DNA from: Bacteroidales bacterium
GTDB taxonomy: Bacteria > Bacteroidota > Bacteroidia > Bacteroidales > Bacteroidaceae
Assembly (NCBI GenBank): GCA_015060865.1
Contig: SUXS01000001.1
Coordinates: forward strand, 1-64,000
Length of the DNA stretch: 64,000 nucleotides
Reading direction: 5' to 3'
Part shown: piece after piece, positions 6,512 to 42,698 of the stretch
How positions within the stretch are numbered: the stretch's first letter is position 1
Layout of the letters: every line of letters starts with the position of its first letter
Program-made: the position numbers and the translations under genes
Notes under the pieces: model-generated
What the model was told of the DNA's origin: nothing
What the model saw: the letters and a program-made list of their open reading frames with translations, nothing else
Database searches by the model: none

Positions 6512-6550
6512 AAGCTGGCGGCCATCATCTCGCGACCCCTGAGGGTACTT

Positions 6551-6712
6551 TCCCTCTTGTACCCCCACCCGGCCTGCGGCCTCGTCCCCCTGTCAGGGGG
6601 ACAGTGCAGGAGAGTGCAATCATCGCGGTAAGACTATTCCGGGAAAACTGTCCCCCAGGCAGGGGGACGAATGTAGAGAGCGTTAGCGAACGGAATGGAG
6701 GGGGTGCTGTTT
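6551..6712 (+). repeat. family A GC-rich palindromic element, copy 1 (left of DUF559 gene)
   Basis: Contains CACCCGGCCTGCGGCCTCG, an inner palindrome CCCCCTG..CAGGGGG, the motif ATCGCGG (6622-6628) and a right arm running from ACTGTCCCCC to GGAGGGGGT. The 6551-6617 part is repeated in the same orientation at 7207-7283. Only four substitutions and one 10-bp tandem duplication separate them by my reading. Confidence 0.85.
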
Positions 6713-7167: not shown

Positions 7168-7290
7168 TATTTTTGTACCCCCACCCGGCCTACGGCCTCA
7201 TTACGCTCCCTCTTGCACCCCCACCCGGCTTGCGGCCTCGTCCCCCTGCTAGGGGGACAGTGCAGGACAGTGCAGGAGAGTGCTAGCTAT
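7168..7290 (+). repeat. family A element, copy 2 (right of DUF559 gene)
   Basis: Holds one and a half copies of the unit starting ACCCCCACCCGGC (7172 and 7216), then CCCCCTGCTAGGGGG and a 10-bp tandem duplication ACAGTGCAGG. It is a direct repeat of 6551-6617 and lies between the DUF559 gene and the antitoxin-like micro-ORF. Confidence 0.85.
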
Positions 7291-7652: not shown

Positions 7653-8855
7653 ATGCGTTACCGATTAGCCACCTACCGCGAGTGCAAGGCACACCGCGAA
7701 TGGAACACCACCTGCCCCGACTGCGGGCGCCGTGGCAAGTTCTCTCCCTACATCGACATCGCGACCATGCAGCCTGTTGATGACAAGCGCTGTGGCCGCT
7801 GCAGCCGCCTCTCCAACTGTGGGTATCATCTGCCGCCCCGTGAGATGCCTCGCACGGAGGATTATGGTTCACGCGCATCTCGCGAAAGGCGCGAAAATCC
7901 AGGTCCTGAAAATTATGCCTCACACAGATCGCACAAATCTCACAGAAGCTGCATCGCAGAAAGCTCGCAGCTGCCATCCGGTGTGTACACTCGGCGCAGC
8001 CGACAGCAAGGGCGAAGCGACTTGCCATTTCGTGAGATTTGTGAGATCTGTGTGAGACAGAAAGAGGAGTTTGGTGAGACAAACAACTCCCAGCGCGAGG
8101 CCAGCGAGTTTTATGAGAAGATGCGCCGCGCCTGCGAGCAGTCGCAACCCTGGGGCAGCCATCTGGTGACCTGGCTGCGCACCAAGTTTCCCCGCGAGCA
8201 GGTCGATGCCGCACTGAAGCGCTACCGCGTGGGCGGCACACCCGACGGCGCCACCCTCTGGTGGCAGATTGATGAGCAGGGACGCGTGCACACTGGCAAG
8301 GCCATGCTGTATAATCCGCTGACGGGACACCGCGTGAAGGAGCAGGGCTTTCCCGTCAACTGGGCACACCGCATGCGCCGCTATGGTGAGCCGTCAGAGC
8401 TGGTGGCACCGCAATGTCTGTTTGGGTTACATCTGATCAACGTTGACGTTAACGCTAACGATAACTGCCATCCGGAGGATATACATCGCGAAGCCCAGTC
8501 AACGTTATCGTTTTCGTCATCGTTAGCATTACAAGCGGCGACGCTGCCGCTTGTAATGCTTGTCGAAAGCGAGAAGACCGCCCTCATCATGAGCCTCGTC
8601 TGCCCCGACAAGGTGTGGCTTGCCACCGGCGGCAAAGCAAACTTCAAGGAATCGATGCTCGCGCCCCTCATAGGACTCGAGGTAGCCGTATACCCCGATG
8701 CCGATGCCCTGCACGACTGGTACACCCGCGCTGTGGAAATGAACCGCACCCTCGGCACCCACCTGCATATCCCCACTGGCTACTACAACCTGATGGACCA
8801 CGACGAAACACGCCGCGAGGGATGGGACTTGGCAGACGTCGTTTTAAGTTCATAA
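7653..8855 (+). CDS. DUF6371-like zinc-finger/toprim-like island protein carrying two repeat insertions
   Basis: A 400-residue protein. Residues 20-57 hold a CPDC...CGRC zinc-ribbon with an NCGYH tail, as in primase-like proteins. The C-terminal half contains LVESEKTALI (about residue 305) and later VYPDADALHDW, a toprim-like arrangement seen in DUF6371-type proteins of Bacteroidales mobile regions. These may act on DNA replication. Residues about 90-135 (family B hairpin, 7920-8057) and about 263-293 (family C element, 8438-8530) are encoded by repeats. The first is Arg/Ser-rich (SHRSHKSHRS) and both keep the frame. They fall in linkers, so the protein may still fold. It starts an island with DUF4248, HU, smalltalk and a peptidase. 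Confidence 0.75.
   Translation: MRYRLATYRECKAHREWNTTCPDCGRRGKFSPYIDIATMQPVDDKRCGRCSRLSNCGYHLPPREMPRTEDYGSRASRERRENPGPENYASHRSHKSHRSCIAESSQLPSGVYTRRSRQQGRSDLPFREICEICVRQKEEFGETNNSQREASEFYEKMRRACEQSQPWGSHLVTWLRTKFPREQVDAALKRYRVGGTPDGATLWWQIDEQGRVHTGKAMLYNPLTGHRVKEQGFPVNWAHRMRRYGEPSELVAPQCLFGLHLINVDVNANDNCHPEDIHREAQSTLSFSSSLALQAATLPLVMLVESEKTALIMSLVCPDKVWLATGGKANFKESMLAPLIGLEVAVYPDADALHDWYTRAVEMNRTLGTHLHIPTGYYNLMDHDETRREGWDLADVVLSS
7920..8057 (+). repeat. family B palindromic element inside a coding sequence
   Basis: The left arm TCACACAGATCGCACAAATC (7920 on) pairs with the right arm ending GTGAGATCTGTGTGA (8029-8055), with few mismatches. The 80-odd bases between contain smaller CTTCGC/GCGAAG text. 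Related hairpins lie at 10611-10794, 26633-26804 and 55524-55610. Confidence 0.85.
8438..8530 (+). repeat. family C palindromic element inside a coding sequence, copy 2
   Basis: The left arm AACGTTGACGTTAACGCTAA and right arm ATCGTTTTCGTCATCGTTAG flank the core CCGGAGGATATACATCGCGAAG. It adds about 31 residues, including IHREAQS, to the DUF6371-like protein, in frame. The copy at 6079 yields KHREAQS in a different protein. Confidence 0.85.
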
Positions 8856-9173: not shown

Positions 9174-9231
9174 AATGGTTATAGTTATCGGTTTTCTATT
9201 TATTTAAATTGGCTTCTATCGCGGAATTCCT

Positions 9232-9397
9232 TACCCCCTCCGTTTCGCTACGTAAACTCCGCTACACTCGTCCCCCTTAAAGGGCGACAGTTCTTTTTAA
9301 TTTGTTTGTACGCGCGATAAGACTATTCAAAAGGCACTGTCGCCCTTTAAGGGGGACGAGCGAAATGGAGCCTCAGCGCAATGGAGCGGAGGGGGTA
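9232..9397 (+). repeat. family A element with long inverted arms, copy 3
   Basis: The 25-bp block at 9267-9291 is the exact reverse complement of 9336-9360. The outer ends (TACCCCCTCCG at 9232 and CGGAGGGGGTA at 9387-9397) also match, while the parts between have diverged. The loop contains CGCGATAAGACTATTCAAAA, shared with copy 1 (TAAGACTATTC). The motif ATCGCGG lies just outside at 9218-9224. The 25-bp block recurs identically inside the activase gene at 36163-36187. Confidence 0.92.
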
Positions 9398-9398
9398 A

Positions 9399-23548: not shown

Positions 23549-24152
23549 ACGCTCGTTTTTGTCTTACACATATTATTTTGCGAAGATACAACATCCTCCA
23601 CAATGCCGCAACTTTTCCAATACATTTTTGCCATTCCGAGCAAACGGAAGGGTCCGCATTATGCAAGCATGAAGATACGATTATATATGCAAGTGATATC
23701 TATAACATAAGAAAAACTGAATACACACAAGCAATAATCTTGCAGAAAGTGTCCGAAAAGTTTTCAAAGCAAACACGCAAAAAGTAAAATATCCACGGAT
23801 ACGTAATGAAATATCCGTGAATACGTGATGAAATATCCGCGGATATTTAATGAAGTATCCATGGATACGCAAACTTTTCGGTAAGCGGAACTGAAAAAAT
23901 GGAAGGGAAGAACCGAAAAATAGGAAGGGAAAGTATGGAAAACGAAAAAAAAGAATTGTCCTACTCGGCAAAAGTGTCAAAAAATTTGACAATTTTCGTC
24001 GAAAAAAACATTTTTCGCAAAAAAGTCATGGTGACGTTTGGCAGTTTCAATAATTTTGCCTATAGATTTATATGCGGCAAGAGAGTGCGCCCCTTTTCTG
24101 CATAATAAGGTATGATGGAACTATGAATGTATAACTAAAAGAACTTACTCAA
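23549..24152. other. AT-rich spacer containing a 4 x 22-bp palindromic array
   Basis: Between the antitoxin start and the first FtsX-type permease. It contains the tandem array at 23787-23874 and purine-rich AT text. A 68-codon frame at 23899-24105 lacks any protein-like character and I do not call it. The permease promoter is presumably near 24080-24140 but is not clear. Confidence 0.5.
23753..23881. repeat. four tandem 22-bp palindromic units enclosed by 11-bp inverted repeats
   Basis: Units at 23787-23808, 23809-23830, 23831-23852 and 23853-23874 have exactly 22-bp spacing, each built around TATCC(N)2GGATA-like centres (TATCCGCGGATA and TATCCATGGATA are perfect palindromes). CCGAAAAGTTT at 23753-23763 and AAACTTTTCGG at 23871-23881 are perfect inverted repeats around the array. 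It looks like a multi-site operator or iteron. It is not a CRISPR, since it has no unique spacers. Confidence 0.85.
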
Positions 24153-35312: not shown

Positions 35313-38300
35313 ATGAAGAATATTCGAGTGGGACTGGATATAGGGTCCACGACGTTGAAAGCGATAGCCATTGATGATAGCGCGAAGCCGCTGTTTACCT
35401 ACTATGAGCGTCATAATGCCGATGTGCTGGGGCGCATGGAGCACTGCTTCGGGCAGCTGCGCCAGAAACTGGGCGAGGAGGTGCAGTATAGCATCTGCCT
35501 CACAGGCTCGGTGGCCATGGGCGTGGCCGAGCGAGAGGGGCTGGACTTTGTGCAGGAGGTGGTAGCAGCAGCGGAGTATGTGAAACGCTGCCATCCCGAG
35601 GTGAGCACGATGATTGATATCGGGGGCGAGGATGCCAAAATTGTGCTCTTCGAGCAGGGCAAGGCAAAGGACCTGCGCATGAACGGCAACTGTGCCGGTG
35701 GTACGGGTGCCTTCATCGACCAGATGGCGGTGCTGCTCGACGTGGATGTGGCGGCACTCGATGCGCTGGCACGGGAGGCCACGCAGACCTATGCCATAGC
35801 CTCGCGCTGTGGCGTGTTCTGCAAGACCGACATACAGAACCTCATCGCCAAGAATGCGGCGAAGAGCGATATCGCTGCCTCCATCTTCCGTGCCGTGACG
35901 GTGCAGACGGTGTCGACCCTTGCCCACGGCTGCGAGCTGCGGGCGCCAATGATGCTGGTGGGTGGCCCCTTGACCTTTATCCCCTCGCTGCGCAAGTCGT
36001 TCATCGACTTCCTCCACTTGAGCGAATCCGACATCATACTTCCCGAAGAGGGTGCCCTCATACCGGCTTGGGGTGCAGCACTGAGAGCGAAGAAAAACGG
36101 CCTCCCCCAACCCCCTCCCGAAGAGGGGGCTCTCCCCATCGCGGACGAACTAACTAAAAAGAACTGTCGCCCTTTAAGGGGGACGAGTGGAGTGCAGTGC
36201 AACGAAACGGAACGGAGGGGGTCGGAGTGCTCTCAAGGGCATTTGGAGAAGATTTTTACTTCCAAGTCCGACTACGATGCGTGGCGCACCAAGGCCGACA
36301 GCTGTGCCATGCGTGCTGCGGTGTGGAAGCACGATGACGAGCAGACTATATATATAGGTATAGACTCGGGCAGCACCACCACGAAGATTGTGGCGCTCAC
36401 TCCCGAGCGTGAGTTGCTCTACACCTACTACCGCGTGAACCGTGGCAACCCCATCGCCACGGTGGTGGAGGGACTGCGCCGACTCGACGGAGAGGCACAG
36501 GCACGTGGCGTACGTCTACGTGTAGCAGGGTGCTGTACCACAGGCTATGGCGAGGATCTCATCAAGGCGGCCATGCGTGCCGAGCATGGCATCATAGAGA
36601 CCATGGCGCACTATATGGCGGCGGCATACCTCACGCCCGACGTATCGTTCATCCTCGACATCGGCGGACAGGACATGAAGGCTATCTTCGTGGACCAGGG
36701 TATCATCAATCGCATCGAAATCAACGAGGCCTGCTCCTCGGGCTGCGGCTCCTTCATTGCAGCTTTTGCACAATCCTTAGGCTACACGCTCGAACACTTT
36801 GCCCACGAGGCCTGCATCGCCGGGCACCCCTGCGACCTCGGCACACGTTGCACCGTATTCATGAACTCGAAGGTGAAGCAAAAGCTCCGCGAGGGGGCTA
36901 CCGTGGCCGACATCGCTGCGGGGCTCTCCTACTCGGTGGTGAAGAACTGTCTCTTCAAGGTGCTGCGCCTCACCGACACCGCCGTGCTGGGCGACCACAT
37001 CGTGGTGCAGGGCGGCACGATGAAGAACGACTCCGTAGTGCGTGCCTTCGAGCTCCTCACCGGCAAGTCCGTACTGCGCAGCAACACACCCGAACTGATG
37101 GGTGCCGTGGGCTGTGCCCTCTATGCCATAGCCCATGCCTCGGTCACCACACAGTGGCTCGACGAACTCCTCGACACCTGTACCTACACTACCCGACAGG
37201 CGCAATGCCATGGCTGCGAAAACCAGTGCCTCATACAGCGCTATACCTTTGCCAACGGTGCTCGCTACGTATCGGGAAACCGCTGCGAACGCATCTACAC
37301 CAATGGTGCCACCGCCGTGGAGAATGGCCGCAATGCGTATGAGGAGAAGAGGAGGTGCCTGTTTGGCGAGTTAGGAATTAGGAGTGAGGAATTAGGAGTT
37401 AACTCACAACTCTCAACCCACAACTCACAACTTAAAATCGGTCTTCCCCGCTGCCTCAACATCTTCGAGGAGTACCCCTTCTGGAATGCGCTGTTCACGG
37501 CGTGCGGCATGGAGGTGGTGCTGTCATCGCCCTCCGACTATGGGCGCTACGAACGGGTGGCACGGCAAATCATGTCCGACAACATCTGCTTCCCAGCCAA
37601 GCTGGCCCATGCACATGTGCAGGAATTGGTAGACAGGCGCGTCGACCGCGTGTTCATGCCCTTCGTGGTGTATGAGCGCTCACGGGGCGAGCAGAACAGC
37701 TACAACTGCCCCGTGGTGACGGGCTACTCGCAGGTAATCAAGAGCGTGCAGACCACCGATGTGCCCATCGACGCGCCGGTGTTCTCCTTCAAGGACGAGA
37801 AGACGCTGTACCGCCAGTGTCGCCGCTACCTGTTGGAGCTCGGAGTAGACGAGAGTTGCATACGCAGTGCCTTTGCTGAGGCCATCAAGGCACAGGAGGA
37901 CTATGAGCACGAAGTGGTGGAGATAAACCGCCGCATCTATGCCGAGGCGCTGGAGCTGGGCCGCCCCGTCATCCTGCTTGCCGGACGACCCTACCATACC
38001 GACCCGCTCATACAGCACCAGCTCTCCGACGTGGCAGCCTCGCTGGGCGCCTACGTCATCACCGAAGATATAGCCCGCGAACTCGACGTGCCCATGGGCG
38101 AGACCCATATCCTGGCGCAGTGGTCGTTCCCGAACCGCATTGTACGTGCCGCCAAGTGGGCGGTGGAGCAACCAGTGGACATACTCTTCATGCAGATTAC
38201 CTCATTTGGCTGCGGCCCCGACGCCTTCTTCCTCGACGAGATAGCCACCTTCCTTGCCCGTCACGGCAAGGCACTCACCCTCATCAAGGTAGACGACGTG

Positions 38301-39674
38301 AACAATGTGGGTTCGCTCAAGCTGCGCATACGCTCAGCGTTGCAGAGTAGGGAAAGGGTGGCCCCCTCAACTCCCCCCGAGGGGGAGCTTAATGCGGCGA
38401 TGTCTGAGAGCCCCCTCTTCGGGAGGGGGTTGGGGGAGGCTTCTCCCTTCACTACCACCCGTAGGTTTACCAAGGATGAGCGTCACCGCAAGGTGCTGGC
38501 ACCCTTCTTCACCCCTTTCATCTCGCCCCTACTACCCAAGCTGTTCGGGCTGGCGGGATACGATGTAGATATATTGCCCGTGAGTGACAAGGTGTCCGAC
38601 GAGTGGGGACTCAAGTATGCCAACAACGAAGTGTGCTACCCCGCCACGCTCGTCATCGGTGATATCGTGAAGGCTTTCAAGGAGCATCGCTACGACCCCA
38701 AGAATACGGCTGTGGCCATGTCGCAGACGGGCGGACAGTGCCGCGCCAGCAACTACGTGCCCATGATCAAGAGTGCGCTCGTGCAGATGGGCCTCGAGGA
38801 GGTACCCGTAATCTCCTTTGCCATGACCGACAGCATACAGAACGACCAACCCGGATTTACCATTCCCTGGGCCAAGGTCATCCGTGTGGCCATAGCGGCC
38901 GTGCTGTGCAGCGATGCCATTGCCAAGATGTACTATGCCGCCGTGGTGCGCGAGACCCGTCAGGGTGAGGCAGCACGCCTGCGCGACCACTATATTGCCC
39001 TGTTAGGCAAGGCTGTAGAGCACAACAACCCCGACCGCCTCTATGCCACGCTTGGTGAGGCGGCACGCGACTTCGATGCCATCTGTCAGGACAAGCACTG
39101 CCCTAAGGTAGGTGTGGTGGGCGAGATATTGCTCAAGTTTCACCCCTATGCCCAGCGCGGTGTCACCGACTGGCTCGTGGAGCGCGGCATTGAGGTATTG
39201 CCTCCGCTGATGACCGAGTTCTTCCTCGAGACCTTCGTCAACAAGGAGGCACGCCGCGAGGCGCTCATCGATACCTCCACCGTCTCACCTATACTATATA
39301 AGTGGGCCTACAGCTACCTGCGCCGACAGATGCGCCGTGCAGACAAGCTTTGCGCCCCCTTCCGCTACTACCAGCCCTTCCACGACATCTTCGACATAGC
39401 CCGCGAGGCCAGCCATGTAATCAACCTCAACACCCAGTTTGGCGAGGGATGGCTGCTCCCCGCCGAGGTCATCGGTGCCGTGCGCAGCGGTGCCACCCAT
39501 GTGGTGAGCCTGCAGCCCTTCGGTTGCATAGCCAACCATATCGTGTGCCGTGGCGTGGAGAATAAGCTCAAGCGCTACCTGCCCGAGCTCAATCTGCTCT
39601 CGCTCGACTTTGACAGCAACGTGAGCGAGGTCAACGTGGTGAACCGTCTGCTGCTCTTCGTGGAGGACCTTTGA
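35313..39674 (+). CDS. very long BadF/BcrA + HgdB-type activase (acyl-CoA dehydratase activase family) with three repeat-encoded insertions
   Basis: About 1453 residues from ATG 35313 (MKNIRVGLDIGSTTLKAIAI). There are two ASKHA ATPase units: the first with DIGSTTLK, DIGGEDAK and NGNCAGGTGAFI; the second from about residue 345 with GIDSGSTTTK, DIGGQDMKAI and CSSGCGSFI, whose cysteines normally bridge a [4Fe-4S] cluster. From about 640 come a cysteine cluster CHGCENQC and DUF2229-like text (IGLPRCLNIFEEYPFWNALF). HgdB-like dehydratase folds follow (VLAPFFTPFISPLLPKLFG; NEVCYPATLVIGDIVKAF). Family members activate radical dehydratases or act in benzoyl-CoA-type reduction; the role of the long Bacteroidales form is unclear. 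Insertions lie near residues 260-310, 684-709 and 1010-1049. Confidence 0.88.
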   Translation: MKNIRVGLDIGSTTLKAIAIDDSAKPLFTYYERHNADVLGRMEHCFGQLRQKLGEEVQYSICLTGSVAMGVAEREGLDFVQEVVAAAEYVKRCHPEVSTMIDIGGEDAKIVLFEQGKAKDLRMNGNCAGGTGAFIDQMAVLLDVDVAALDALAREATQTYAIASRCGVFCKTDIQNLIAKNAAKSDIAASIFRAVTVQTVSTLAHGCELRAPMMLVGGPLTFIPSLRKSFIDFLHLSESDIILPEEGALIPAWGAALRAKKNGLPQPPPEEGALPIADELTKKNCRPLRGTSGVQCNETERRGSECSQGHLEKIFTSKSDYDAWRTKADSCAMRAAVWKHDDEQTIYIGIDSGSTTTKIVALTPERELLYTYYRVNRGNPIATVVEGLRRLDGEAQARGVRLRVAGCCTTGYGEDLIKAAMRAEHGIIETMAHYMAAAYLTPDVSFILDIGGQDMKAIFVDQGIINRIEINEACSSGCGSFIAAFAQSLGYTLEHFAHEACIAGHPCDLGTRCTVFMNSKVKQKLREGATVADIAAGLSYSVVKNCLFKVLRLTDTAVLGDHIVVQGGTMKNDSVVRAFELLTGKSVLRSNTPELMGAVGCALYAIAHASVTTQWLDELLDTCTYTTRQAQCHGCENQCLIQRYTFANGARYVSGNRCERIYTNGATAVENGRNAYEEKRRCLFGELGIRSEELGVNSQLSTHNSQLKIGLPRCLNIFEEYPFWNALFTACGMEVVLSSPSDYGRYERVARQIMSDNICFPAKLAHAHVQELVDRRVDRVFMPFVVYERSRGEQNSYNCPVVTGYSQVIKSVQTTDVPIDAPVFSFKDEKTLYRQCRRYLLELGVDESCIRSAFAEAIKAQEDYEHEVVEINRRIYAEALELGRPVILLAGRPYHTDPLIQHQLSDVAASLGAYVITEDIARELDVPMGETHILAQWSFPNRIVRAAKWAVEQPVDILFMQITSFGCGPDAFFLDEIATFLARHGKALTLIKVDDVNNVGSLKLRIRSALQSRERVAPSTPPEGELNAAMSESPLFGRGLGEASPFTTTRRFTKDERHRKVLAPFFTPFISPLLPKLFGLAGYDVDILPVSDKVSDEWGLKYANNEVCYPATLVIGDIVKAFKEHRYDPKNTAVAMSQTGGQCRASNYVPMIKSALVQMGLEEVPVISFAMTDSIQNDQPGFTIPWAKVIRVAIAAVLCSDAIAKMYYAAVVRETRQGEAARLRDHYIALLGKAVEHNNPDRLYATLGEAARDFDAICQDKHCPKVGVVGEILLKFHPYAQRGVTDWLVERGIEVLPPLMTEFFLETFVNKEARREALIDTSTVSPILYKWAYSYLRRQMRRADKLCAPFRYYQPFHDIFDIAREASHVINLNTQFGEGWLLPAEVIGAVRSGATHVVSLQPFGCIANHIVCRGVENKLKRYLPELNLLSLDFDSNVSEVNVVNRLLLFVEDL
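36098..36240 (+). repeat. family A element in frame inside the activase (insertion 1)
   Basis: CCTCCCCCAACCCCCTCCC and GAAGAGGGGGCTCTCCCC, the motif ATCGCGG at 36138-36144, then a 25-bp block at 36163-36187 that is identical to 9336-9360 in the island. Next come GCAACGAAACGGAACGGAGG and GGGTC. It encodes a linker between the two ATPase units. Confidence 0.92.
37364..37436 (+). repeat. family D repeat in frame inside the activase (insertion 2)
   Basis: GTTAGGAATTAGGAGTGAGG leads into AATTAGGAGTTAACTCACAA and CTCTCAACCCACAACTCACA. It encodes GIRSEELGVNSQLSTHNSQL between the Cys-rich segment and the DUF2229-like domain. Confidence 0.85.
38352..38452 (+). repeat. family A element in frame inside the activase (insertion 3)
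   Basis: CCCCCTCAACTCCCCCCGAG and GGGGGAGCTTAATGCGGCGA, followed by AGCCCCCTCTTCGGGAGGGG and GTTGGGGGAGG; the latter is a strong palindrome. It encodes the linker VAPSTPPEGELNAAMSESPL followed by FGRGLGEAS. Confidence 0.88.
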
Positions 39675-40483: not shown

Positions 40484-40530
40484 AAGGTTGAGAGTTGAGG
40501 GCATACGTTCCCCGCTTTCAACCTTTTTTT
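40484..40530 (+). terminator. rho-independent terminator after rplY
   Basis: AAGGTTGA at 40484-40491 pairs with TCAACCTT at 40518-40525, followed by a T-run. The stem loop includes family D-like GAGTTGAGGG text. Confidence 0.7.
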
Positions 40531-40537
40531 ATGCACA

Positions 40538-40566
40538 AAATTCATAATTCAAAATTCAGAATTAAT
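40538..40566 (+). repeat. family D repeat between rplY terminator and pth
   Basis: AATTCATAATTCAAAATTCA then GAATTAA, nearly identical to 9759-9788 before the HU gene. It occupies the place where the pth ribosome binding site would be. Confidence 0.75.
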
Positions 40567-40569
40567 TAC

Positions 40570-41151
40570 GTGAAATACCTAATAGTAGGCCTGGGAAATC
40601 CCGGCTATGAATACGACGGCACACGCCACAACATCGGCTTCCGCGTGGTAGACGCACTGGCCAAGGCGGCTGGCGTCGCCTTCGAGGACAAGCGCTACGG
40701 GTTCGTGGCCCAGATGAGAGTGAAGAACGCACAGCTCGTGCTGCTCAAGCCCACTACCTACATGAACCTCAGCGGCAATGCCGTGCGCTATTGGCTGGAG
40801 AAGGAGAACATCCCCAACGAGAACCTGCTCATCGTGGTGGACGACCTATCGCTACCCACAGGCACCCTGCGCCTCAAGGGCAAGGGCAGCGACGGCGGAC
40901 ACAACGGACTGAAGCACATCGCCCAGCTCATAGGGCAGAACTACGCCCGCCTGAAGTTCGGCATCGGCAATGAGTTTCCCCGAGGAACACAGGTCGACTA
41001 CGTGCTCGGCAAGTTTGACGCCGAGGACGAGGCCATCATCGAGCAGCAGCTACCCACGGCCTGCGACATCATCAAGAGCTTCTGCCTCGCCGGTATCACC
41101 ATCACGATGAACCAATACAACAAGAAGGGAGTAGGCCTCCCCCCTGCTTAA
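40570..41151 (+). CDS. pth: peptidyl-tRNA hydrolase
   Basis: 193 residues from the GTG at 40570 ([20 protein letters not shown]). Upstream frames at 40495 and 40531 would only add terminator- and repeat-encoded residues, so I reject them. The catalytic His of TRHNIGF, the Asn of [10 protein letters not shown], the Asp of VVDDLSLP, and [14 protein letters not shown] are all present. The enzyme recycles peptidyl-tRNAs dropped from ribosomes. The final residues GVGLPPA and the stop codon are encoded by the left end of a family A repeat. Confidence 0.94.
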
Positions 41152-41304: not shown

Positions 41305-41733
41305 TTGGAAGCAAGAATTGACAAATGGCTATGGGCGGTGCGCCTTTACAAGACCCGCTCGATGGCGACAGATGCCTGCAAGAAAGGACAGGTAACGATG
41401 AACGGCGCGACGATGAAACCCTCGAAGACCATCAAGGAGGGCGATGTGGTGAGTGTGCGCAAACCGCCCATCACCTATACCTTCCGTGTGCTCAAGGCCA
41501 TAGAAAACCGCGTGGGAGCCAAACTCGTGCCCGAGATGCTGGAGAACATTACCCCCAAGGAGCAGTACGACATCCTCGAGATGAGCAAGATAAGCGGATT
41601 TGCCAACCGTATGCGAGGCACCGGACGCCCCACCAAGAAGGAGCGCCGCGACCTTGACGAGTTCCTGGGCGACGACAACTTCGGTGCCGACCTCTTCTTC
41701 TTTGACGATGAGGATGAGGACGACGAAGACTAA
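41305..41733 (+). CDS. hslR: S4-domain RNA-binding protein (Hsp15-like)
   Basis: 142 residues, apparently from a TTG at 41305 (MEARIDKWLWAVRLYKTRSM); no ATG exists at the proper place. S4 domain: RIDKWLWAVRLYKTRSMATD, KKGQVTMNGATMKPSKTIKE, GDVVSVRKPPITYTFRV. The tail is strongly acidic (FFFDDEDEDDED). Hsp15 proteins bind 50S subunits carrying stalled nascent chains, which fits the neighbour pth. The stop codon overlaps that of mazG on the other strand by 4 bases. Confidence 0.88.
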   Translation: MEARIDKWLWAVRLYKTRSMATDACKKGQVTMNGATMKPSKTIKEGDVVSVRKPPITYTFRVLKAIENRVGAKLVPEMLENITPKEQYDILEMSKISGFANRMRGTGRPTKKERRDLDEFLGDDNFGADLFFFDDEDEDDED

Positions 41734-42521
41734 CCCTGCGCTTCGTTGCGCTTAGCCTCATCCCACAGCGCATCCATCTCTTCCAATGTCATATCCTTGA
41801 GATTGCGTCCCTGGGCTATGGCATTCTCCTCCACATAGTTAAAACGGCGGATAAATTTCTGATTCGTACGTTCCAGCGCATTATCGGGGCTGAGCCCGTT
41901 CATGCGTGCCACATTGATGGCGGCAAACAGCAGGTCACCTAGTTCGGCTTCGGCCAAATCATGGTTGTCATGCTCCAGTTCTACTTTGAGTTCCTCAATC
42001 TCCTCAAGCAGTTTGTCCCAAGCCCCCGATGCGTCGTCCCACTCGAAACCTACGTTGCGTGCCTTCTCCTGTATACGATAGGCCTTTACAATCGACGGCA
42101 GCCCAGCCGGAACTCCACTGAGTACCCGTTTGTTCCCCCCCTTCTCCTTCAGTTTGAGCTGTTCCCAGTTTTCAGATACCTGTGCGGCATTCTCCACCTC
42201 CACAGTGCCAAACACGTGTGGATGACGAAAGATAAGCTTGTCGCACAAGCGATCACACACATTCTTCATGTCAAACGCCCCCTTCTCTGAAGCTATTTTG
42301 GCATAGAAAGCTACATGCAACAACACATCGCCCAGCTCCTTACAGATGTTGGCCTCATCCTCATTGATTAGGGCATCGCACAGCTCATACACCTCTTCTA
42401 TCGTATTGGGCCGCAAGCTTTCATTAGTCTGTTTACGATCCCATGGACATTTCTCACGCAATTCGTCCAGCACATCCAGGAAGCGTCCGAAGGCCTCCAT
42501 TTGCTCTTGTCTTGTACTCAT
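41730..42521 (-). CDS. mazG: MazG nucleoside triphosphate pyrophosphohydrolase
   Basis: 263 residues from the ATG at 42519-42521 (MSTRQEQMEAFGRFLDVLDE). An upstream start at 42566 is excluded because the minus-strand -7 TACCTTTG lies at 42544-42551. Two MazG repeats: the first with CPWDRKQTNESLRPNTIEEV then YELCDALINEDEANICKELG (EExxE and ExxD metal motifs); the second with WDKLLEEIEELKVELEHDNH and AEAELGDLLFAAINVARM. It hydrolyses (d)NTPs to monophosphates and affects ppGpp and oxidised nucleotide levels. The length equals the E. coli enzyme. Confidence 0.95.
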   Translation of the reverse strand: MSTRQEQMEAFGRFLDVLDELREKCPWDRKQTNESLRPNTIEEVYELCDALINEDEANICKELGDVLLHVAFYAKIASEKGAFDMKNVCDRLCDKLIFRHPHVFGTVEVENAAQVSENWEQLKLKEKGGNKRVLSGVPAGLPSIVKAYRIQEKARNVGFEWDDASGAWDKLLEEIEELKVELEHDNHDLAEAELGDLLFAAINVARMNGLSPDNALERTNQKFIRRFNYVEENAIAQGRNLKDMTLEEMDALWDEAKRNEAQG

Positions 42522-42543
42522 ACCATCATATATTTCTGACACG

Positions 42544-42551
42544 CAAAGGTA
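42544..42551 (-). promoter_or_regulatory. mazG -7 promoter element
   Basis: TACCTTTG on the minus strand, 22 bases before the ATG; it decides the mazG start. Confidence 0.6.
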
Positions 42552-42698
42552 ATGCTTTATCGGCAAATCACCACTACCCTACCCCAAATATAAAACAAAA
42601 AAAAGAAAGATACAGTAAAATATCCGAAGACACTACCCTGCAGTATTCCCACATCCTTGCAACTTTATACAATGAGATCTTTTATTTCAAGAAAGCAA

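Follow-up and report, generated by a model that had tools for sequence, protein, structure and literature searches.

The window, the whole stretch of 64,000 nucleotides analysed here, is the beginning of contig C24 in a 3.03-Mb genome of 36 contigs, the nearest named relatives of which are ruminant-gut Bacteroidaceae MAGs (L030-L033). On its forward strand, at 35313-39674, lies a gene for an acyl-CoA dehydratase activase-type protein of 1453 residues with two BcrAD/BadFG ATPase domains and a DUF2229 domain; the frame starts with the ATG at 35313, ends with the stop at 39672-39674 and is open throughout. The ATPase domains, at residues ~6-262 and 350-608, flank linker 1 (36099-36222) on both sides, and this linker is a two-part palindromic repeat lying in frame between them, as the initial annotation had stated. 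Its left half is a GC palindrome (36099-36134), of which bases 36100-36134 are repeated exactly, in inverted orientation, at 38406-38440 of this gene. It is followed by the joint ATCGCGG (36138-36144), to which joints in several other composite elements are similar, and by the right half (36148-36222), a unit of the element found in the accessory island of the window, with an A-rich lead, a hairpin core at 36164-36187 and a CGGAGGGGGT end; all three parts are read on the forward strand, and the terminator-like strand of the right half runs antisense to the activase gene. The right half is identical to the island over 25 bp in direct orientation (36163-36187 and 9336-9360), just as first reported, and over 35 bp in inverted orientation (9299-9265), which is longer than the inverted match originally claimed for 9267-9291. 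The end of linker 1, ...CGAAACGGAACGGAGGGGGT, is also the end of the island element. The likeness had been extended to the neighbouring GC palindromes as well, and for the left one this has to be corrected: since it matches 38406-38440 and not the island, the insert in linker 1 combines two kinds of repeat that meet near ATCGCGG. Perfect copies of the 24-bp core are found at three places in the window (9267-9290 on the reverse strand, 9337-9360 and 36164-36187 on the forward strand) and in none of 100 shuffled sequences. In the source genome the core is matched at 10 places when up to 3 mismatches are allowed, and BLAST with the 148-bp stretch finds 19 places, the query's own place being counted in both.

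Two further linkers of the activase are repeat-derived. Linker 2 (37368-37436, forward strand, residues ~689-711) consists of AT-rich heptamer arrays, inverted and placed back-to-back, and linker 3 (38360-38440, forward strand, residues ~1019-1046) is a pair of GC palindromes, with 27 repeat codons in the window at a place where two sister species (G005 and G014) have ~11 ordinary codons, the old codons having been replaced. Mean pLDDT was 84.5 in the AlphaFold model of residues 4-623 (36 sequences) and 79.9 in that of residues 600-1456 (32 sequences). Runs with pLDDT below 50 that were longer than 7 residues comprised residues 267-311 (codons at 36102-36236, forward strand), 691-706 and 1021-1042, all inside the three linkers; shorter ones were residues 130-133, the first 7 residues of the second fragment and two runs of 3 residues. 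This low model confidence suggests that all three linkers are disordered.

In the island the element is present as an intergenic inverted dimer of 168 bp (9231-9398, no strand assigned) that reads TTACCCCCTCCG...CGGAGGGGGTAA and is terminator-like. Within the unit an A-rich lead is followed by the core hairpin and a middle that varies, and most copies end in GGAGGGGGTAA. Copies of the core in the fetched loci comprised 8 inverted dimers and 21 with no second exact pattern match within 260 bp, and several of the dimers contain ATCGCG-like joints. A short palindrome with many intergenic copies, both single and as inverted dimers, is what is expected of REP/BIME sequences, while the TTACCCCCTCCG...CGGAGGGGGTAA-like ends of the dimers form terminal inverted repeats in the manner of MITEs. 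CGTC occurs in the core, CTCGTCCCCCTTAAAGGGCGACAG, but the stem that follows it opens with C-G pairs, and there is no CCA tail. Other repeats were noticed in the window besides this element. Two 73-nt hairpin copies in the island (6546-6618 and 7202-7274), 90% alike, read CTGTCCCCCTNNNAGGGGGACGAG and then become GCC-rich, with the same skeleton as the island element, and at 23787-23874 a 22-bp tandem repeat is present in four copies, the majority of them with a palindromic ATCCNNGGAT block.

The opposite strand of many element halves reads as a hairpin followed by a T tract, and a strong T tail was found on 31 of 46 halves. A terminator scan listed sites at 9268-9287 and 36186-36167, the latter antisense to the gene, and terminator-like sites were not much rarer in shuffled sequence (2 against a shuffle mean of 1.0, and 3 against 2.8). 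Among 38 distinct element copies in the fetched loci seven had open frames reaching 40 codons on each side; two of these lie together in one frame of locus L194 that has no Pfam match, which leaves five copies in recognisable hosts. The L194 copies were excluded beforehand from a small test of strand against T tail, in which the halves in the five hosts (n=8) divided completely: the four sense halves all were without a T tail and the four antisense halves all had one (Fisher p 0.029). A unit that contains GGGGGTAA and lies sense in a recognisable host would yield an in-frame TAA. The three sense coding copies instead have GGGGGTCGG (linker 1 of the window and linker 3 of G006) or GGGGGTAT (a DUF6371 gene of G018), while the reverse-oriented coding copies (L009, L201) retain GGGGGTAA, which gives no stop on the coding strand.

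The core pattern is present in 10 of 19 genomes of the genus and in none of the seven whose PorX protein (see below) is without an insert, a tally over related genomes which does not amount to 19 independent tests. G007 and G012 have PorX inserts and no match to the core pattern, so other repeats must act there. Over 301 genomes of the family the pattern was found in 14, the ten of the genus and four from two other genera (G255, G244, G182 and G267). G255 has 64 matches, and the rest of its genus in the scan has none except for one genome with a single match. None of ten G255 copies examined lies in an open frame of at least 100 codons, and their middle and lead are unlike those of the genus copies. 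Most of these ten (L243-L252) share a AACTTTTTT...AAAAAAGTT-like middle and a conserved flank, from which they look like a related, amplified element.

Five congeneric activases, that of the window and those of four named MAGs (L030 in G005, L033 in G014, L031 in G007 and L032 in G006), were compared. They are collinear, and outside the linkers the only gap is of three residues near the N terminus of L032. Without the linkers their bodies are 83-96% identical over 4005 aligned nucleotides, with dS of 0.18-0.81 and dN/dS of 0.03-0.11. Linker 1 over its length is common to no pair of the five species; the congeners' sequences at its position differ from that of the window and are largely repeats. 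Short pieces are alike, namely the 31-nt left palindrome of the window and G005 (87%) and the first 24 nt of G006 and G014, and therefore part of the linker may be inherited and not newly arrived. Linker 2 is identical in G005 and G014, and that of the window resembles that of G007 (75% over 65 nt), while linker 3 of G005 and G014 is plain, of ordinary length, 90% alike and without a hairpin element. For many of these linkers the likeness to one another is confined to repeats, of which several are inverted or lie at another linker, and the same element lies in the same frame in linker 1 of the window and linker 3 of G006 (80% over 85 nt). In a further genome, G018, the activase (L115/L118/L123, G018:C63:7220-8402) comprises residues 1-270, 364-393 and 1339-1456 on one 12-kb contig, which is either a large internal deletion or a misassembly.

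Outside the genus the inserts are absent. We aligned 80 of 81 activases, 80 loci and the window, leaving out L056, which is short. The median lengths between the anchors are 65, 34 and 34 residues, as compared with 88, 46 and 52 in the window. The initial annotation had made the origin of linker 1 depend on whether distant species carry the same residues, and none of the 75 outside-genus activases shares even five consecutive residues with insert 1; the same is true of insert 3. With insert 2, three of the 75 have a 5-mer in common but none has a 6-mer. Linker 1 or linker 2 is long in five of the 75 (L107, L076, L059, L049 and L067). These five linkers had no match in the sampled source genome or in the rest of their own fetched loci and thus are not shown to be repeats.

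The activase is not the only gene concerned. We sampled 461,781 bp, or 15% of the source genome (the window, contig C21 and the first 120 kb of C15 and C14), in which a simple longest-first call gave 267 open reading frames of at least 200 codons. With a threshold of 40 bits intergenic DNA gave 42 matches in 16 of the 267, internal in nine (more than 60 nt from both ends), in two of which the match falls close to the N terminus; intergenic DNA that had been reversed gave no match in this search. Two other approaches were abandoned: a strict hairpin scan of the sampled genome (stem of 8 or more) found only 5 sites and missed known ones, some stems being shorter, and comparison of the window with stretches of G014, G005 and G007 gave 4, 4 and 3 matching reading frames, too few for a gene-by-gene count.

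PorX (NF052313, 804.7 bits) is present in 18 of the 19 genus genomes, the match in G009 being only a distant receiver domain, and in G017 it is a fragment containing a stop. In the alignment 11 of the 18 have extra residues at the junction of the receiver and PglZ domains, between residues 211 and 216 of the solved PorX 7pv7, and seven have none. The nine inserts measured are of 29-39 residues, as compared with 7, and form four groups (G000/G003/G004/G005, G014/G018, G006/G007 and G010; G011 and G012 were left out). In alpha-L-rhamnosidase (12 proteins) heptamer-type sequence is present at site 1 in five of six proteins of the insert clade and in none of the six others, and at site 2 only G000 has a long insert. 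The island element lies between the domains of a kinase-FGE protein, and it is also present in a BT4734-like protein of G003 and the DUF6371 protein of G018. The window has its own island gene with a Zn-ribbon and DUF6371 (7653-8855, forward strand), 41% identical to that of G018, in which a common start is followed by other sequence at the site of the element; it has repeat-like stretches of its own at residues ~86-98, 125-135 and 271-290. MazG of G005 has 28 extra residues that are absent from the MazG of the window (41730-42566), and an inverted repeat is visible by eye in their DNA. A nucleotidyltransferase was not counted, as G000 was the only insert-clade genome with a match at E 1e-30 and the loop in question also varies in the other species. 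At 40495-41151 of the window the listed start of a peptidyl-tRNA hydrolase falls within an AT-rich repeat; the pth model begins at residue 29, and the true start is therefore probably downstream.

From these results linker 1 is very probably a composite of two dispersed palindromes of the REP/BIME/MITE kind that came to lie in frame, and one case of a clade-wide process; it now forms a predicted disordered spacer between the ATPase domains. This reading is based on dispersed copies, an open frame, absence in outgroups, differing repeats at the same sites, conserved domains, low model confidence at the linkers and several affected genes. Several unrelated families are involved, namely GC palindromes, the terminator-like palindrome and AT-rich heptamer arrays. 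The view of the initial annotation, that a repeat family has been spreading into coding DNA, where it is tolerated as a linker, is supported in substance and was too narrow, as several families, three linkers and other proteins are concerned; moreover, the old linker has been replaced rather than simply added to, and spread by transposition is an inference. On the present reading, intergenic repeat families in part of the genus repeatedly land in genes and persist where an arbitrary open peptide is tolerated, mainly at domain junctions and in loops. Resident repeats are later replaced by others, so that close relatives come to differ at the same junction. A transposase supplied in trans could have driven the spread, or hairpins could have prompted template switching, with purifying selection then presumably keeping the frame open and avoiding termination on the sense strand. 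Copies would in this way arrive anywhere, and the survivors would be those that preserve frame and transcription, mostly at junctions; the strand bias of the T tails, the open frames and the missing TAA fit such a filter. Replacement of old codons fits insertion followed by deletion, or template switching. Neither a target-site duplication nor a clean empty site could be resolved. The search for a parent element covered Y1_Tnp (PF01797), to which the source genome has two weak matches, one of them under the Pfam cut-off; the better, a weak RAYT-like candidate, has 43.7 bits against a cut-off of 80 for the NCBIfam REP-associated transposase, and no such palindromes were seen by eye in the 3 kb around it. 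A more far-reaching version, which we put forward tentatively as possible, is that linkers in this clade are still being rewritten by repeat copying, that is by replacement through template switching or conversion at palindromes and not by transposition alone, while the domains stay fixed. If this were true, bacteria would have in modular repeat swapping a general means of gaining new unstructured protein sequence.

It is rather unlikely, although with some evidence in its favour, that the linkers are hypervariable for another cause and are swapped among strains or species, with homologous recombination in the conserved domains carrying the repeats along. The PorX insert groups do not track the tree of the PorX domains (17 proteins): G005 and G018, which are sisters in the tree (support 85), have inserts that are unrelated, G005 grouping by insert with G000, G003 and G004, and G018 with G014. 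Several nodes of this tree are, however, poorly supported (43, 55, 58 and 63), and such exchange leaves unexplained both why the exchanged linkers consist of intergenic repeats and why some inserts occur in single genomes, as in rhamnosidase site 2 of G000 and in MazG of G005 when compared with the window. We consider it improbable that the hairpins are retained because they serve a role at the DNA or mRNA level, such as slower translation between domains for stepwise folding. The position of inserts at domain junctions of the activase, PorX and the kinase-FGE protein would suit such a role, and linker 3 as RNA folds far better than its shuffles (z -4.06); however, linker 2 does hardly better (z -0.32) and linker 1 no better (z 0.07), linker 3 is without a hairpin element in two sister species, and AT-rich arrays do as well as GC palindromes.

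Repeats are common points of misassembly, the named congeneric records are all MAGs and the G018 activase is broken on its 12-kb contig, yet a fusion of unrelated loci at repeats during metagenome assembly is very improbable as the source of these linkers: the frame is open across the repeat in the activases of five species, whose domains are all collinear, and in PorX of 11 genomes, where chimeric joins would disrupt frame and gene order, and a typical short read is longer than the exact repeat blocks (25-35 bp). That the linker is ancestral coding sequence or a chance likeness of low complexity is hardly credible, for although linkers vary in other Bacteroidales too and five of the 75 outside proteins have a long linker 1 or 2, those five match neither the sampled source genome nor the loci of one another, inserts 1 and 3 share no 5-mer with the 75, and 25-35 bp of DNA identity with intergenic copies stands against none expected and none in the reversed control.

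Taken as repeats that overwrite linkers, these inserts have wider consequences. In this ruminant-gut group intergenic repeats have turned into domain spacers, which bears on the speed with which selfish-looking DNA can become protein. The lineage, so far known from MAGs, displays the process at short range, as species at dS of about 0.2 differ and the outgroups are without any of it. Two questions are thereby opened to simple comparison, the origin of new unstructured protein sequence and the freedom with which linkers can be exchanged. A linker peptide in a genome of this sort can derive from repeat DNA, and this may mislead searches for domains, homology and tandem repeats.

Bidirectional intrinsic terminators are characterized by a hairpin plus a T tract, and many element halves would resemble them by sequence in having both; unlike them, the coding copies have no T tract in the sense direction. 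The best-known in-frame palindromic repeats are those of Rickettsia. The Rickettsia palindromic elements (RPE), as outlined in the available parts of two accounts, are intergenic palindromes that also lie in frame within conserved genes, typically in unstructured segments, have been reported for Wolbachia and Methanocaldococcus too, and in one case are borne by an enzyme reported to be active (PMC2996958, PMC2229807). The activase repeats behave in the same way, being inserted in frame, with the frame open, and absent from orthologues. They differ from RPE, as far as these are covered there, in sequence and host phylum, and in that unrelated families occupy the same junctions and old codons are replaced. 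There is a likeness to intragenic REPs of the GTAG and CGTC superfamilies as well: in the portion of the account at hand these are short palindromes and inverted dimers, both intergenic and intragenic, many of which encode 20-30 residues, and recB of two Xanthomonas species has different REPs at about the same site (PMC3733652). The island core is, however, without a GTAG tag, and its stem and tail depart from the CGTC families as described there, which have A-T first pairs and mostly CCA tails (PMC3733652); recurrent turnover over several genes is not among the features that this portion describes. Enterobacterial RU/ERIC sequences are likewise MITE-like repeats with open frames fused into genes, but these are other elements in other hosts, and the emphasis in the part of that report at hand is on new proteins and not on linker replacement (PMC2759123). 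With in-frame palindromes on record from Rickettsia, Wolbachia, a methanogen and enterobacteria, and with intragenic REPs in many genomes, the kind of event is already known. We found no report of such repeat-overwritten linkers in Bacteroidales or Prevotella in the literature searched, the coverage of which leaves out most subscription journals. What appears new within that coverage is that, in Bacteroidales, the same junctions are overwritten again and again, by unrelated repeats and in more than one gene.
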